A stretch of 21,449 nucleotides of DNA. Source: Photobacterium leiognathi (lineage in GTDB: Bacteria; Pseudomonadota; Gammaproteobacteria; Enterobacterales; Vibrionaceae). The stretch spans positions 1 through 21,449 of the forward strand of contig NZ_CP131600.1 in assembly GCF_030685535.1 (NCBI RefSeq), given 5' to 3'. Within the stretch, counting starts at the first letter, position 1, and every line of letters starts with the position of its first letter. Below the pieces are notes generated by a model. That model was not told the origin of the DNA. It ran no database searches and saw nothing but the letters and a program-made list of their open reading frames with translations. Below are positions 6,640 to 16,445 of the stretch, piece by piece. A program made the translations under genes and the position numbers.

Positions 6640-7790
6640 CTAAATCAAATTGTACTCATAGCTAATAACTTTTAGCAGTGAATCATCTATCTTCCAAGGG
6701 AAATATTGACGTAAATTTCCTCCCGTTGCGATAGGTGTAGTAGTGCTCCGATGTAAGTTTATATCAGACACAACTATCAGCATGTTGTTTGGATAGCTTT
6801 GCATGTGTAATTCAACTTCATTACGTGTCAAAACAACAGTTCCAATGCTGGAGGTTGTCCCTTTCACCTCTACAGGTATCGAGCTGCCTTTTTTGGTCGC
6901 TTTAAAATCATATGATTCTTTGTTACTAACATCTTCAACTTCATAACCAAGTGTAATAAGGTGTTCTTGTGCCACCTGCATTGCCCTTAACTCTATAGCT
7001 TTTCTTTCTGGACCTGTAAGCTTAAACCCTTGACCTACACCTTTCCCATGAGAGGCACTTTTAACATCAGATACGACTATGTCCTCTTGATCTGGTGCTC
7101 TACCCATATCTTCACCGAAATAAAGCTGACCAAGCAAACCTGCAAATAAACAGGCATCTTGTGTTAGCTCCTCAAGACTTGGTAGATTTGTTAAATCATA
7201 ATATTTGGCCGCAATAACGGATTTTTCATATGATTGAGCTAGTTTTAATTTAGACTCTAAGTTTATTGACTTAACAATATCAGGACGAGACTTAATCGAA
7301 CTAGCAATAACTGCACTACCCCAATCCGTCAATTGTTTAAGTTCATCATTTGAACGAGGAACAAAACTGCCATTTTCTAGCCTAGAAGAGCCATGTGCTA
7401 AACAAACGTATATTCCATTGCCATGGGTAGGAAATAAATAAACGACATACCAGCCCTGAGTAGCACTCTTTGACCTAGATTTAGAGTAGAACCTGCTCCA
7501 GGGAACATCTGTTTTTCGGCCTACACCGTCTTTTCCTTCAAAAGAAATGTCAGTGTATTCCTGTTCCATAGCTTCTAATATTTTCGGCCTACACCGTCTT
7601 TTCCTTCAAAAGAAATGTCAGTGTATTCCTGTTCCATAGCTTCTAATATTTTCGGCTTTAGTGACTTAACAAATTCAGTGAACTCCCCCCGGACCAACTC
7701 ACCTCTTCTTTTCATATGTGGAGTATTGTCTGATGACCATAACGGTTGAAGAGAACAAATTTCTTTAATTATTTTGTGGGCCACGAACAT
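6640..7790 (-). pseudogene. DUF3578 (McrB N-like) + DUF3883 nuclease gene, split by a 68-bp duplication
   Basis: Two adjacent reading frames (7790-7575 and 7569-6640) belong to one gene. Removing one copy of the tandem 68-bp repeat at 7513-7648 joins them into a single protein of 360 residues. The N-terminal half (WSRFYSKSRSK, GWYVVYLFPTHGNGIYVCLAHG) looks like the McrB N-terminal DNA-binding domain DUF3578. The C-terminal part (AMQVAQEHLITLGYEVEDVS, YDFKA, PVEVKG) is a DUF3883 domain with a PD-(D/E)xK-like core: Asp272, Glu285 and Lys287 in the joined protein. Such pairs occur in restriction and phage-defence proteins. As sequenced, the upstream frame stops at a TAG five bases before an in-frame ATG (7569), so re-initiation could yield a 309-residue product lacking the first 51 residues. 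It stands alone, with no methylase beside it. Confidence 0.75.
7513..7656. repeat. 68-bp tandem duplication with 8-bp boundary homology
   Basis: Bases 7513-7580 are repeated exactly at 7581-7648. The 8-mer TTTTCGGC stands at both starts and again at 7649-7656, so the duplication arose between two TTTTCGGC copies 68 bases apart. Since 68 is not a multiple of three, it shifts the frame of the nuclease gene. Confidence 0.97.
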
Positions 7791-8048: not shown

Positions 8049-8070
8049 CTGTACATATATACAGTATAAT
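8049..8070 (+). promoter_or_regulatory. LexA (SOS) box and -10 of umuDC
   Basis: CTG-N10-CAG at 8049-8064 within the 18-bp palindrome ACTGTACATATATACAGT (8048-8065) is a near-ideal LexA operator. A perfect TATAAT (8065-8070) overlaps its right end. LexA bound here would block the promoter until DNA damage. The ATG of umuD begins only six bases after TATAAT, so the transcript may be leaderless. Confidence 0.92.
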
Positions 8071-8076
8071 TTAACC

Positions 8077-8784
8077 ATGATTACACTTAACACTCACGTA
8101 CAGGCGGGGATCACCTACTTTGAAAACCCCACTATTCGCTTTCGGAAAAAATCGCTAAACCTACAAACCATGTTTGTACACAGCCATTCATCTATGCGGA
8201 TAATGAGCGCCGATAACACCTACAAAAAGCTAGGGATCGCCAAAGGGGATTGGCTACTCATAGACTGCGCCTTACAACCACTAAACAGCGATCTTGTTGT
8301 ATTTGAGCAACACGGTGACAACCACATCGCACGTTGGAACCTGCTATGCCAACACATTGCCGCATCGGGCAAAGAGTGGGACGACTTACACGTAATAGGC
8401 GTGATCACTCTTTCCATCCATCACTTCAGGCAACCGCCGTTATTACCATGGCACCATGACTTAACCGAACTCGACCTACACCAACTGGTGATCACCCAAG
8501 AGCATTCCACCATATTGTGCCGTGCGGCTGGGCTTTCCATGCTGCCGTACATTTGGGACCACGACATACTCGTATTAGAGCGCCACCTCAACCCTGAGAA
8601 CGAAGACGTTATCGTACTTTCATTAAACAACGATCTTGTTGTTAAGCGCGTAAACCTACACAGCAGAACCTTGTATTCAGATAACCCCAGCTTTCAGCCA
8701 CACCCAATAAACCAAGACGACTACACCCGCTTACACGGCGTGGTGCGTTACAGCCTACGATTACACCGCCCTGTTACCTTATGA
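8077..8784 (+). CDS. umuD: Tandem UmuD: fused double S24-type subunit of DNA polymerase V
   Basis: A 235-residue protein, against about 140 for UmuD, made of two consecutive UmuD-like units. Unit 2 (about 131-235) aligns well with UmuD': LDLHQLVI at 132-139, catalytic Ser154 in AAGLSM, and Lys190 in VVKRV, 36 residues apart (37 in E. coli UmuD). Unit 1 (about 10-118) has the same layout (LGIAKGDWLLID at 52-63, IARW at 84-87, VIGVI at 106-110), but the serine position is Thr48 (ADNTY) and the lysine position is Arg86, so it should be inactive. An Ala10-Gly11 pair precedes unit 1 at the place of the UmuD/MucA cleavage site; no such pair precedes unit 2. The promoter carries a LexA box. umuC overlaps by four bases (ATGA). 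No Shine-Dalgarno sequence is visible. The functional reading is inference from alignment by eye. Confidence 0.85.
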   Translation: MITLNTHVQAGITYFENPTIRFRKKSLNLQTMFVHSHSSMRIMSADNTYKKLGIAKGDWLLIDCALQPLNSDLVVFEQHGDNHIARWNLLCQHIAASGKEWDDLHVIGVITLSIHHFRQPPLLPWHHDLTELDLHQLVITQEHSTILCRAAGLSMLPYIWDHDILVLERHLNPENEDVIVLSLNNDLVVKRVNLHSRTLYSDNPSFQPHPINQDDYTRLHGVVRYSLRLHRPVTL

Positions 8785-10061
8785 TTTGCTTACTTGATGG
8801 CACCCGCTTTTACGCCGAATCTTGCATTACCTACAAGCCCGCCCTGAGAAACACCCCGCTACTGGTAACAGCAGGTCAAGGGATCTCCATTGCCGCTAAC
8901 CGTGCTTGCACTAACATCGGGATTTCAAAATTCACCCCTATATGGGAAGAAATAGACCGCCTACGGGTACACAAAGGCATTGTGTATAAAGCTAACTTCA
9001 ACACCTTTTCTCACCATTCAGATCGCTTCATGACAGCCCTTGAAAAGCACATACAAGGTGCCCGCTCTATGCGCTACAGCGTAGATGAAGTGTTTTACGA
9101 TGTTAGCCACCTCCACCAAATTAACGTCGATTTGAATGAACACGTACAAGCACTACGCAAAGCCATTTACAAAGAAACTGGTGTACCGACAGGCGCAGGT
9201 GTAGGCAAAACCCTGACCTTTACCAAAGTCGCCTCGTGGGCAGCGAAGAACTGCCAACCCTACCAGGGACAATGTGTATTAATAAGCGAGAAAGAAACCG
9301 ATGCGGTTTTAAAACAAATGCCCGTAGGTAAACTTTGGAACATAGGCAGACAACTGAATAAACACCTGACACAAGAAGGTATTTTAACCGCCTACCAACT
9401 AAAACAGTGCGACACTAAAACCTATCACAAACGTTATTCCATCAACGTGGCTAACGTGATTTCAGAGCTTAATGGCATCGCCTGTTTAGACATATCCGTT
9501 GAGCGAGAAAAGAAAAAACAGATATGGTCTACCGCTTCCTACCGTGATCGCCTACACTACCGAGACGACCTTTTTGCCGAATTGGCTCACCACTGCGCCG
9601 AAGTGATGCGCAAAATACGTGACCAAAAAAGCGAGATGAAAACCCTTTCGGTATTTGTCAGCACCTCAAAGTACGACCGTTGCCCGCCGTTTTATCGCCG
9701 TGGTGAACTGACACTCGAAAACGGCCTAACCGATACCAGTTTTGCCCTGCAGCAACTGCGCGTCTTATTCGATGATTTGATCCCCGACAACCTTGCCAAG
9801 CAACCCATATACAAAGTGGGCGTGGGCGCCCCAAGCCTGATTGATGCCGAAGTAAAACAGTTCGAGTTATTTAACCGCTTTGATAACAAAGACACCTTAA
9901 ACAACACCCTCGACCAACTAAGCGATCGCTTTGGTAAAGGCGTGATCGGTTTTGCATGCCAGCAACGTAGCTACCACGAACGACAGGGAGAAATAGAAAT
10001 GTTAGAGCTAGAGAACTACTACACCGACATTAGAGACATTGTGGTAGTGAAGTGTGTTTAG
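8781..10061 (+). CDS. umuC: UmuC-like Y-family DNA polymerase (Pol V catalytic subunit)
   Basis: A 426-residue translesion polymerase, the size of UmuC (422). Metal-binding residues are present: Asp6 in LLDGTRFY and Asp102-Glu103 in YSVDEVFYD. Tyr11 matches the steric-gate tyrosine. The helix-hairpin-helix region (GKLWNIGRQLNKHL near 183-196) and the little-finger domain follow, and a likely beta-clamp motif QFELF lies about 60 residues from the C-terminus, corresponding to QLNLF in E. coli UmuC. It is strongly diverged from E. coli UmuC (for example GQGISIAANRACTN in place of the NNDGCVIARN region). Translation is coupled to the fused UmuD gene by an ATGA overlap. The pair gives damage-inducible mutagenic repair, a frequent plasmid cargo (MucAB, RulAB, ImpAB). 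Confidence 0.93.
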   Translation: MICLLDGTRFYAESCITYKPALRNTPLLVTAGQGISIAANRACTNIGISKFTPIWEEIDRLRVHKGIVYKANFNTFSHHSDRFMTALEKHIQGARSMRYSVDEVFYDVSHLHQINVDLNEHVQALRKAIYKETGVPTGAGVGKTLTFTKVASWAAKNCQPYQGQCVLISEKETDAVLKQMPVGKLWNIGRQLNKHLTQEGILTAYQLKQCDTKTYHKRYSINVANVISELNGIACLDISVEREKKKQIWSTASYRDRLHYRDDLFAELAHHCAEVMRKIRDQKSEMKTLSVFVSTSKYDRCPPFYRRGELTLENGLTDTSFALQQLRVLFDDLIPDNLAKQPIYKVGVGAPSLIDAEVKQFELFNRFDNKDTLNNTLDQLSDRFGKGVIGFACQQRSYHERQGEIEMLELENYYTDIRDIVVVKCV

Positions 10062-14078: not shown

Positions 14079-16445
14079 TTAATTACTATCTTTATTAAGC
14101 TTTGTATTTCTTATCGGATAAGATGTAATTACCATGCCATTACTCCCTATAACTATACGGAGATTAGTTACTGTATATTGTTGATTGTTATATGTAAACT
14201 GAATGTTTCCATAAGTCCTAACTGATGAACCATTCCGAGGTGATGCTCTATTTTCAACATCTGATGTCGTATTTGATAGTGCAGCCATCAGCATAGTTGC
14301 AAGCATATCTCGATTGGTTATGCCCAACGCTTCCCAATCCCTTCTATGCCCTCCCTCGATAGTGCTCCATATATGGTATAACCCATAAGAAAATCGTTTG
14401 TTTAATCGGTCTCTATCACTTAAAAACTGTGGATCAGGCAAATAAACAATACCTAAATTGTTTCCAGATCTCATTCCATCTTCAGCGATACCCCAAACAT
14501 AATTAAAAATATCATTTATTGTGTACCTAGGAGGAAGAGGTACATAACTGTTTACCAACTGTGTTGCTAGACCATGAAAAGGCTGACTATGTCTTTGATA
14601 AAAACGTCCACCGATTTGTGTATTAGCAGGGGGGGTTATGATTTTATCATGTTCATTTTTACCTAATTTTTTCTTGACTTTTTTTATGCATTTTAAATTA
14701 TTACTTCCATCTAATGTTATGCTTCTTTCTGCACAACTCCCTAAAATTGGCGCTATATTTCGCTTTTCGCCTTTCCTATTTCGAAATGAAATTAACTCCG
14801 GACCACCACTAGCACTTGCTCGTGAACTGGACATCAATACAGAAGCATGTGTTAATAGACCTTCTGCCTCAATGGGATTTTCAAGGATATAATTTCTTAA
14901 CCATGAATCATCAATATTAATATCTGGTAGTGGTGTTGCTCCGGCAGTTGCTACGTCATTGTTGTACTCTTGTAAGATATGTAAGACTTGAATGACTTCT
15001 TCTCGTGTTAAATCACCGATTAAGTTGATAGCTCTATTTTGACTATCTGTACAATTACTCTCGTTTACATCGGAATGAGGATTATCACCACATGCTAAAT
15101 TTGTCATGGCAACATTAAACCCATCATCATCATTGTTTATGCTTTGTTCAATGGCTTCATAGCTTTCTAAGTCAACGTTTGATGGAATAGCATTATTATT
15201 TCTCTGTATGCCATCTATTTGGTTATTGTCTTGACTGATCCCACACAAGCTAGGTGCGCCAAAAATACGCTCCAAAACATATATACCAAATGAAGATATT
15301 CCATATATAATATCTTCAATACATCTTTTATTTCTTGGCCTATTTTCATTTAATGGAACTACAGTATCAGATGTGTAAATAATGTTGCCTATATTATTGT
15401 ACGCTTGACTGTATGGTTTTAATGCGTTTAGGTAGTGCGTTGTTGAAAAAAAAGGGCTGCTAGTCGAATTTCTGTTAGAGTTAACTAGAATGTTGTAATT
15501 AAGCCATTGATTTAATGTGTATGAGTCGGCATTTAAATAAATTGCGTCATTTAAAACTTTATCGCCGGTTTGAATTACACCAGTGCTCGGATCATAATTA
15601 GCTTCACTTATTGATATAGCTATGTTTGATGGAGCATTTAAATTAGACTTTGCTTGCTCTGTTAATAAATAAATTGAAAATTGAATATAGTCACTTTCTA
15701 CTGATTTAGATAATGCAATATCAAAAGGCCAACTAATTACTCTTCTATATGGTATAAATGACTCATCATATGTTATACTACCACTATGACTAGTTGGATG
15801 CCAAACATCATTAGCCGTTCCTATATATTGTAGCTTTAATCTGTGTTCGCTAACATTTGCAGATAATCCAGCATAAGAATATCTTCTATTTATTTTACTA
15901 TATGAAATTGAGTCATCATTTTCACCATATGATGCAGGTCGTAATGTAATGTTAAATAGGTTTGCGCTGTCTTTTTTCACTAAAATTAAAAGTTTTTTAA
16001 TATAACTTTCACCAAAAGTATCATATTGGCCTCTTGATGTTACAAGTGAGCTTTGAATTCCATCAAACTCAACATTTTCCATAAAAGAGGTGTTGTAAAA
16101 CTTTTGCTTCAATTTGTTTTTTGAACCCAAGTCTTGTTTGAATATACTTCCTGTTTTATTGACGCAAAGACTATGCCCTGGTGGATAGTTTGTATTATAT
16201 GATTTTATTTGATATCCATATCCAGACCCCATAGCGGCTAAGGTATTATCTATCCTATATATGCCCCATTCCAGAATATCTAGTTTTTCTTTAAACTTAA
16301 GAAATTCTTCTCGTTTTAAATATCTTGTGTTTGGGGGGCAGGTTTCAGATAAGTTTACAAGTATGTTGCCATTATCTATTTCATCAATAGCTAAAGCCGT
16401 TGTTGAAGTTAATGCAACAACAGACGCTAGTAATATTTTTTTCAT
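14079..16445 (-). CDS. Large secreted protein with a toxin-like C-terminal domain
   Basis: A 788-residue protein with a clear Sec signal peptide (MKKILLASVVALTSTTALA, cleavage near residue 19). I recognise no family for the Tyr/Asn/Ser-rich body (20-560). There is one hydrophobic patch near 385-410 between cysteines and an Asn/Asp-rich linker near 410-460. The last 90 residues look like an RNase toxin of the EndoU/BECR type: His700 in EGGHRRDWEALGIT, a helix DMLATMLMAALS, then strands ending GMVITSYP (770-777), the usual placing of the first His and the final Thr/Ser-Tyr in such toxins. This is pattern resemblance, not proof. The gene is visibly more AT-rich than umuDC, has no immunity-type gene beside it, and lies between Xer-like repeats B and C in direct orientation, so it was probably acquired. 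A secreted exotoxin or a bacteriocin is possible. Confidence 0.7.
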   Translation of the reverse strand: MKKILLASVVALTSTTALAIDEIDNGNILVNLSETCPPNTRYLKREEFLKFKEKLDILEWGIYRIDNTLAAMGSGYGYQIKSYNTNYPPGHSLCVNKTGSIFKQDLGSKNKLKQKFYNTSFMENVEFDGIQSSLVTSRGQYDTFGESYIKKLLILVKKDSANLFNITLRPASYGENDDSISYSKINRRYSYAGLSANVSEHRLKLQYIGTANDVWHPTSHSGSITYDESFIPYRRVISWPFDIALSKSVESDYIQFSIYLLTEQAKSNLNAPSNIAISISEANYDPSTGVIQTGDKVLNDAIYLNADSYTLNQWLNYNILVNSNRNSTSSPFFSTTHYLNALKPYSQAYNNIGNIIYTSDTVVPLNENRPRNKRCIEDIIYGISSFGIYVLERIFGAPSLCGISQDNNQIDGIQRNNNAIPSNVDLESYEAIEQSINNDDDGFNVAMTNLACGDNPHSDVNESNCTDSQNRAINLIGDLTREEVIQVLHILQEYNNDVATAGATPLPDINIDDSWLRNYILENPIEAEGLLTHASVLMSSSRASASGGPELISFRNRKGEKRNIAPILGSCAERSITLDGSNNLKCIKKVKKKLGKNEHDKIITPPANTQIGGRFYQRHSQPFHGLATQLVNSYVPLPPRYTINDIFNYVWGIAEDGMRSGNNLGIVYLPDPQFLSDRDRLNKRFSYGLYHIWSTIEGGHRRDWEALGITNRDMLATMLMAALSNTTSDVENRASPRNGSSVRTYGNIQFTYNNQQYTVTNLRIVIGSNGMVITSYPIRNTKLNKDSN

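Follow-up and report, generated by a model that had tools for sequence, protein, structure and literature searches.

The stretch of DNA analysed here (hereafter the window, 21,449 bp) carries a gene whose 235-residue product is probably a single-chain UmuD pseudo-dimer and would serve a plasmid-borne Pol V as its accessory subunit; to judge from the sequence, the second UmuD-like unit would cut the N-terminal arm of the first. Fusions of this kind arose at least twice, and with the same polarity each time. For their history we lean, by a modest margin, towards a scenario in which UmuD became a covalent asymmetric pseudo-dimer on at least two occasions (in marine Vibrionaceae/Alteromonadales and in Pseudomonas), the first half bearing the cleavage site each time and the second half the protease. 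In this scenario, two marine lineages went on to a pre-cleaved, protease-dead and constitutive single-chain UmuD'2. The polarity would then argue, from evolution, that natural cleavage of UmuD takes place between protomers.

UmuD is the textbook example of a self-cleaving switch, and the question of whether the cut is made within or between protomers has been worked out with mutants. The fusions are natural experiments in this respect: the protease as a rule sits in the half that is unable to cut itself, and the only dyad losses found are where no arm remains to be cut. They also show a route from a homodimer to an obligate asymmetric dimer. A fused Pol V accessory dimer has a fixed composition and no mixed UmuD/UmuD' states, and could simplify biochemical and structural work on Pol V.

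Two UmuD-like units in one chain

The features that are relevant for the discussion, all on the forward strand (+), are the following:

8049–8064 (+): LexA-type operator CTGTACATATATACAG, ending 12 nt before the start codon of the fused gene
8077–8784 (+): fused (single-chain) UmuD-like gene, ATG start, 235 aa
8077–8106 (+): N-terminal arm of unit 1, residues 1–10, up to the predicted cut (alignment to UmuD)
8104–8109 (+): Ala10-Gly11, predicted cleavage site (UmuD site column)
8107–8430 (+): unit 1, the putative substrate half, an S24/UmuD homologue without the catalytic dyad (profile matches; dN/dS about 0.1)
8218–8220 (+): Thr48, at or beside the Ser60 position of UmuD (alignments)
8329–8334 (+): Ala85-Arg86, aligned with Lys97 of UmuD (in the gap-free register it is Ala85)
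8431–8466 (+): linker, residues 119–130, where an arm and a cleavage site of unit 2 would be expected (unit-2 match starts at profile position 26)
8467–8781 (+): unit 2, the putative enzyme half, UmuD'-like (profile matches)
8536–8538 (+): Ser154, predicted nucleophile of unit 2 (dyad column)
8644–8646 (+): Lys190, predicted general base of unit 2 (dyad column)
8781–10061 (+): umuC-like Y-family polymerase, with a 4-nt overlap with the fused gene

A preliminary description of this DNA had placed at 8077–8784 an open reading frame of 235 residues containing two UmuD-like units, and both points are borne out. The Peptidase_S24 family of Pfam matches the whole protein in two stretches, and a profile of single UmuDs (see below) matches it twice. 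When the halves are searched separately, unit 2 gives a Peptidase_S24 match with an E value of 4.3e-14 and unit 1 one of 0.11, which is below the Pfam cut-off. In NCBIfam, unit 1 matches HumD (2.6e-8, the best score) and UmuD (3.5e-6), and unit 2 matches UmuD (4.9e-19), all of them below the curated cut-offs; the whole protein reaches 90.7 bits against the UmuD family PRK10276.1, whose cut-off is 110 bits. A profile made from 10 unit-1 sequences finds the solved structures of UmuD (8gmt, E 1.9e-15) and UmuD' (1umu and 1i4v, 1e-14), with matches spanning positions 13–114 of 117, and the likeness of unit 1 to UmuD is therefore beyond chance. The possibility, raised beforehand, that the first 118 residues lack the S24/UmuD fold thus did not materialise as far as sequence goes, and by sequence profile both units are assigned to this fold. 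While a single-unit UmuD has about 115–145 residues, the present protein has 235 and two units, the second of which starts past the point at which UmuD is cleaved.

Within this chain, the cleavage site and the dyad are found on different units. Ala10-Gly11 of unit 1, correctly identified at the outset as lying where UmuD is cut, falls in a column that is Ala-Gly in all 90 single UmuDs used, and an Ala/Cys-Gly site following an N-terminal arm occurs on unit 1 only. Ser154 and Lys190 both fall on dyad columns, so that the dyad of unit 2 is intact, as claimed; no unit combines it with a site. The dyad positions of unit 1 had been given as Thr48 and Arg86. It holds that there is neither Ser nor Lys, while the second assignment has to be revised. 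Thr48 is on the Ser column in two alignments and in two others this column has a gap, beside Thr48, with no Ser in any of them. The Lys position is better read as Ala85, which occupies it in the gap-free register; another set of alignments wavers between 85 and 86, and it is never Lys. Likewise, the statement that no Ala-Gly precedes Ser154 is too general, as Ala151-Gly152 is part of the active-site motif RAAGLSM, but there is indeed no Ala/Cys-Gly at the cleavage-site position of unit 2.

Another residue of unit 1, Ser39 (8188–8196, usually in the motif SSM), does not vary among the 20 rows of the closest group and is without obvious counterpart in UmuD. As a candidate for a displaced nucleophile it was rejected, since the preceding stretch aligns to UmuD without gaps and places Ser39 before the nucleophile position.

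The umuC-like frame downstream contains Asp6, Asp102 and Glu103 as well as a QFELF clamp-type motif, whose roles we take to be the same as in E. coli UmuC. The overlap of the two genes and the LexA-type box upstream suggest an operon with umuC under LexA control. The window is an entire contig, one of three in the genome, and its ParA-type, replicase/PriCT and resolvase genes make a plasmid the most likely interpretation. Photobacterium records contain four close copies (97%).

Fused proteins and their origins

Among the matches listed (the best 120 per protein search) and the loci, we found at least 55 fused proteins, from Photobacterium, Vibrio, Shewanella, Alteromonas, Pseudomonas and metagenomes. 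This collection, in which near-copies are counted, consists of a first set of 42 and 13 of Pseudomonas type; a 142-aa piece (P0009), a copy with an in-frame stop (L054) and further near-copies (e.g. L004–L011, L043, L044, L046, L047, L049 and L053) were removed before counting. The single-UmuD profile was built from 90 sequences, each retaining Ala-Gly, Ser and Lys, with a broader profile for the full 55, and it matches every one of the 55 twice (weakest unit-1 match E 3.3e-8). For the first 42, the unit-1 matches start at profile positions 1–13, the site being at 10–11, and those of unit 2 at about 25, past the site, with a few at 16–24. The exceptions are P0025, P0026 and P0028, in which the unit-2 matches start at positions 12–13.

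The Ser-Lys dyad is present in unit 2 of 49 of the 55 proteins. In unit 1 it is present in at most seven, according to the profile alignment, and never in unit 1 when absent from unit 2 (0/55). Four of the unit-1 calls (P0020 and P0032–P0034) are doubtful, because the family alignment puts Arg where the window's protein has Thr48. The dyad of unit 1 is clear in P0025, P0026 and P0028, which are of the V. campbellii plasmid type and, by their sequences, look like a near-symmetric duplicate. Homologues with both Ser and Lys in unit 1, named beforehand as evidence against a division between the halves, thus do occur in part, but in these three the site is still on unit 1 only. Since this type keeps both dyads, the split of site and dyad is not universal.

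Of the 49 proteins with an active unit 2, 45 have Ala or Cys followed by Gly or Ser at the cleavage site. The pairs are Cys-Gly in 21, Ala-Gly in 20, Ala-Ser in four, Gly-Gly in two and Leu-Gly in one, with none in P0010, and the site is still present in relatives that share no more than about 26% identity with the window's protein. Unit 1 is under purifying selection, with dN/dS values between close copies of 0.09–0.13, compared to 0.03–0.07 for unit 2; these come from the four of seven pairs with a computable dS, saturation being reached in the three more distant ones. In the 14 Pseudomonas-type proteins, the Lys of unit 1 is always gone (Arg in 12, Thr in two) and the Ser is still present in four, and the Lys therefore seems to have been lost before the Ser. 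Two proteins of this type, P0128 and P0129, have 66 and 102 residues before the cut, compared to 25–26 in most of their kin, possibly as a result of wrong starts in the database.

A single clade comprising all unit 1s is rejected (p 0.0009; AU p 3e-7 with more Pseudomonas rows), which means that at least two independent fusions took place. Without the Pseudomonas row, a single clade of unit 1s is not rejected (p 0.23), and neither is a common origin of the two Pseudomonas groups (p 0.25), and we therefore hold the claim to at least two and no more. Trees of the individual units were calculated with 33 of the 42 and with 34 of the 55 fused proteins, from about 120 columns; for the latter tree, the bootstrap had not settled. 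In them, both units of the Pseudomonas-type proteins group with single UmuDs of Pseudomonas type, and both units of the V. campbellii type fall together. Among the marine proteins, most unit 1s cluster together, the unit 2s of the window type have a group of their own, and the other marine unit 2s are not separated from single UmuDs. Single and fused genes of Pseudomonas plasmids share a setting, with the order TonB-umuD-umuC-hfq in one locus (L103, which has one extra gene between TonB and the single umuD) and TonB-fused-umuC-hfq in another (L039).

It is important to examine the six fused proteins in which unit 2 is dead. These have Ala/Lys (P0006–P0008), Arg/Arg (G037 and G076) and Asn/Arg (G109) at the dyad positions, and none of the six has Ala or Cys at P1. 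They belong to two lineages, both on branches without an arm. P0006–P0008 open with MKHAV or MKQAV, beyond the arm, their starts being database predictions. In G037, G076 and G109, the LexA-type box and the start are separated by 14, 4 and 8 nt, respectively (for G109, the box CTGTATAAACAACCAG and a GTG start were chosen by eye), a distance too short for an arm, with at most 4 residues ahead of the site. Judged in this way, the six are pre-cleaved, protease-dead forms. A tree made from 35 of the 42 fused proteins, with the trait columns removed, has three changes of the arm and two of the dyad, and both dyad losses fall inside arm-less lineages. The co-loss amounts to two independent events (sign test p 0.5), and a Fisher test on the counts (6, 1, 0, 28) gives p 4e-6, a value that ignores kinship and is not usable as a probability. 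One further protein, P0010, appears to be arm-less, with the start taken as in the database, and has its dyad intact.

Proposed mechanism and alternatives

We now turn our attention to how the fused protein could work. Upon DNA damage, repression by LexA, whose box is seen upstream, would be relieved. The two halves of the resulting 235-residue chain, both of the UmuD family by sequence, would pack against each other like the two protomers of a UmuD dimer. On RecA-ssDNA, Ser154 and Lys190 of unit 2 would then cut after Ala10 of unit 1, and this one cut per molecule would turn the chain into a covalent UmuD'-UmuD' dimer, the form in which it would activate the UmuC encoded next to it. As to how this arrangement came about, a head-to-tail fusion could have turned the second arm into a linker, with loss of the second site. 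The dyad of unit 2 would have been kept by selection for as long as unit 1 had its arm and site, and the dyad of unit 1 would have decayed because no substrate was left for it once unit 2 had lost its arm. Cleavage of each arm mainly by the unit that carries it would instead lead one to expect a dyad in unit 1. For E. coli, the available text of PMC5342242 describes that the arm of a UmuD S60A protomer is cut in trans by the active site of its partner.

The substrate half and enzyme half proposed in the preliminary description are in line with the dyad counts of the two units (49 and at most 7 of 55), with the same polarity in at least two fusions and with the loss of the dyad in arm-less lineages only. 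The division is not seen in the V. campbellii type, which has both dyads. There are also other points against a built-in dimer in addition to the two dyads of P0025, P0026 and P0028: the intact dyad of P0010 in the apparent absence of an arm, the residues at the site among the 49 (Ser at P1' in four, Gly at P1 in two and Leu in one), the fact that the co-loss is based on two events only, and a Shewanella aestuarii member without a neighbouring umuC.

The alternative to which we give the most weight, although we consider it unlikely, is that two fused chains pair into a four-domain assembly in which the arm of one chain is cut by unit 2 of its partner. There would still be a substrate half and an enzyme half, but the molecule would not be self-contained. 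The cutting of UmuD between protomers, as given in the same available text (PMC5342242), would fit this, and nothing in the data fixes which unit 2 meets which arm. However, exactly two units were fused on at least two occasions, which most simply corresponds to one dimer being fixed, and the linker seen in the window's protein, which has about 12 residues, suits domains that are neighbours. It could also be that no maturation is needed, with Ala10-Gly11 as an inherited remnant and the fused dimer, having at most one arm, already active. The lineages of P0006–P0008 and of G037, G076 and G109 do persist without arm and dyad, the latter still preceding a umuC-like gene. A remnant is nevertheless difficult to reconcile with a site of the A/C-G/S form in 45 of the 49 proteins whose unit 2 is active, even at about 26% identity, and with the dyad being lost only where there is no arm, which makes this option improbable.

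Still less probable is that unit 1 serves a task other than UmuC, for example as an SOS regulator or a partner-binding domain. What could hint at such a task is the invariant Ser39 and the one fused member without umuC, but the profile likeness of unit 1 to UmuD extends over most of the unit, a umuC-like gene is adjacent in 27 of 28 loci, and Pfam finds no DNA-binding domain. The last option, namely that umuD is decaying here, its extra copy is degenerate and there is no division of labour, is disfavoured to the point that we give it hardly any weight: one V. alginolyticus copy has an in-frame stop, whereas unit 1 is under purifying selection and the fusion is found in several genera, with the same polarity in independent lineages. 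The built-in dimer, with unit 2 cutting the arm of unit 1, is thus the reading that we retain.

Related systems and distribution

The E. coli Pol V UmuD has plasmid homologues of the MucA/RumA/SamA type. Together with UmuD they share with the fused protein the S24 units, an Ala/Cys-Gly site after a short arm, the Ser-Lys dyad, a LexA-type box and an operon with umuC. They differ from it in that known UmuD is one self-pairing unit with arm, site and dyad in each protomer, whereas here arm and site are on one unit of the chain and the dyad on the other. The UmuD/UmuD' heterodimer has one arm per dimer, as does the fused protein, in which this one-armed state is genetically fixed and covalent, with a single active site. 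HumD of phage P1 is a single-unit UmuD' homologue encoded without an arm, and the arm-less members P0006–P0008, G037, G076 and G109 resemble it in being encoded in the cut form. The window's protein, on the other hand, has an arm and a site and reaches 50.6 bits against HumD, for which the cut-off is 120 bits. LexA and the prophage repressors of the S24 family have a self-cleaving S24 domain, but the fused protein has two S24 units and no N-terminal DNA-binding domain was found in it, Peptidase_S24 being the sole Pfam family at E values up to 10; the score against TIGR00498 (LexA) is 24.3 bits, with a cut-off of 110.95 (NCBIfam).

A comparable asymmetry is known from PolB2 operons, where PPB2, an accessory subunit of a translesion polymerase, is duplicated and only one copy keeps the N-terminal arm motif, according to the available text of PMC11791011. 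PPB2 is a different protein and is present as duplicate genes instead of a fused chain, and self-cleavage is not mentioned for it in that text. Concerning UmuD itself, a search of titles and abstracts in the open-licence literature found no paper describing a fused, single-chain, tandem or duplicated form. In the records examined, the fused gene is named S24 family peptidase, phage repressor or hypothetical protein; among the protein matches, P0034 is called 'Error-prone repair protein UmuD' and P0149 'DNA polymerase V'.

Full-length two-unit matches are present in 12 of 296 Vibrionaceae genomes, including that of the host, and in 1 of 369 genomes sampled from the class, which is the host's own. 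Among plasmids, 34 records have a match covering at least 80% of the query. Of the 18 of these that were examined, 15 have an intact fused gene; in L054 it is interrupted by an in-frame stop, L048 is a single UmuD, and L052 shows many stops in the one frame read. In annotated phage records there are partial matches to the window's protein in nine and none covering 80%. A umuC-like frame adjoins the fused gene in 27 of the 28 loci examined (near-copies counted), and 26 of the 28 have a CTG-N10-CAG box no more than 80 nt upstream of it, compared to an expectation of about 0.012 per 80 nt from the rate in the window itself.

Some individual loci deserve mention. On the Shewanella aestuarii plasmid (L051, 2456–3253), the fused gene has a Leu-Gly site and no adjoining umuC, and a tyrosine recombinase comes after it on the opposite strand. 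The interrupted gene L054 (2483–3187) is on the Vibrio alginolyticus plasmid pMBL287 and has its stop in unit 2. Some genomes have several copies of the fused gene (three in G115, two each in G117 and G286). The preliminary description had also suggested that the fused protein may resist exchange with chromosomal UmuD. In this host, the chromosomal umuD (contig C1, 906326–906749, L116) consists of two overlapping frames, with the site in one and the dyad in the other, and looks frameshifted in the assembly or affected by a sequencing error; downstream of it there is an open umuC-like frame, identified by eye.

Elsewhere in the window, a 788-aa ORF at 14079–16445 has no Pfam match at E up to 0.01, NUDIX and PAP2 phosphatase domains are combined in the ORF at 1179–2627, and 6640–7569 encodes a protein with MrcB_N and NOV_C domains that is possibly defence-related.
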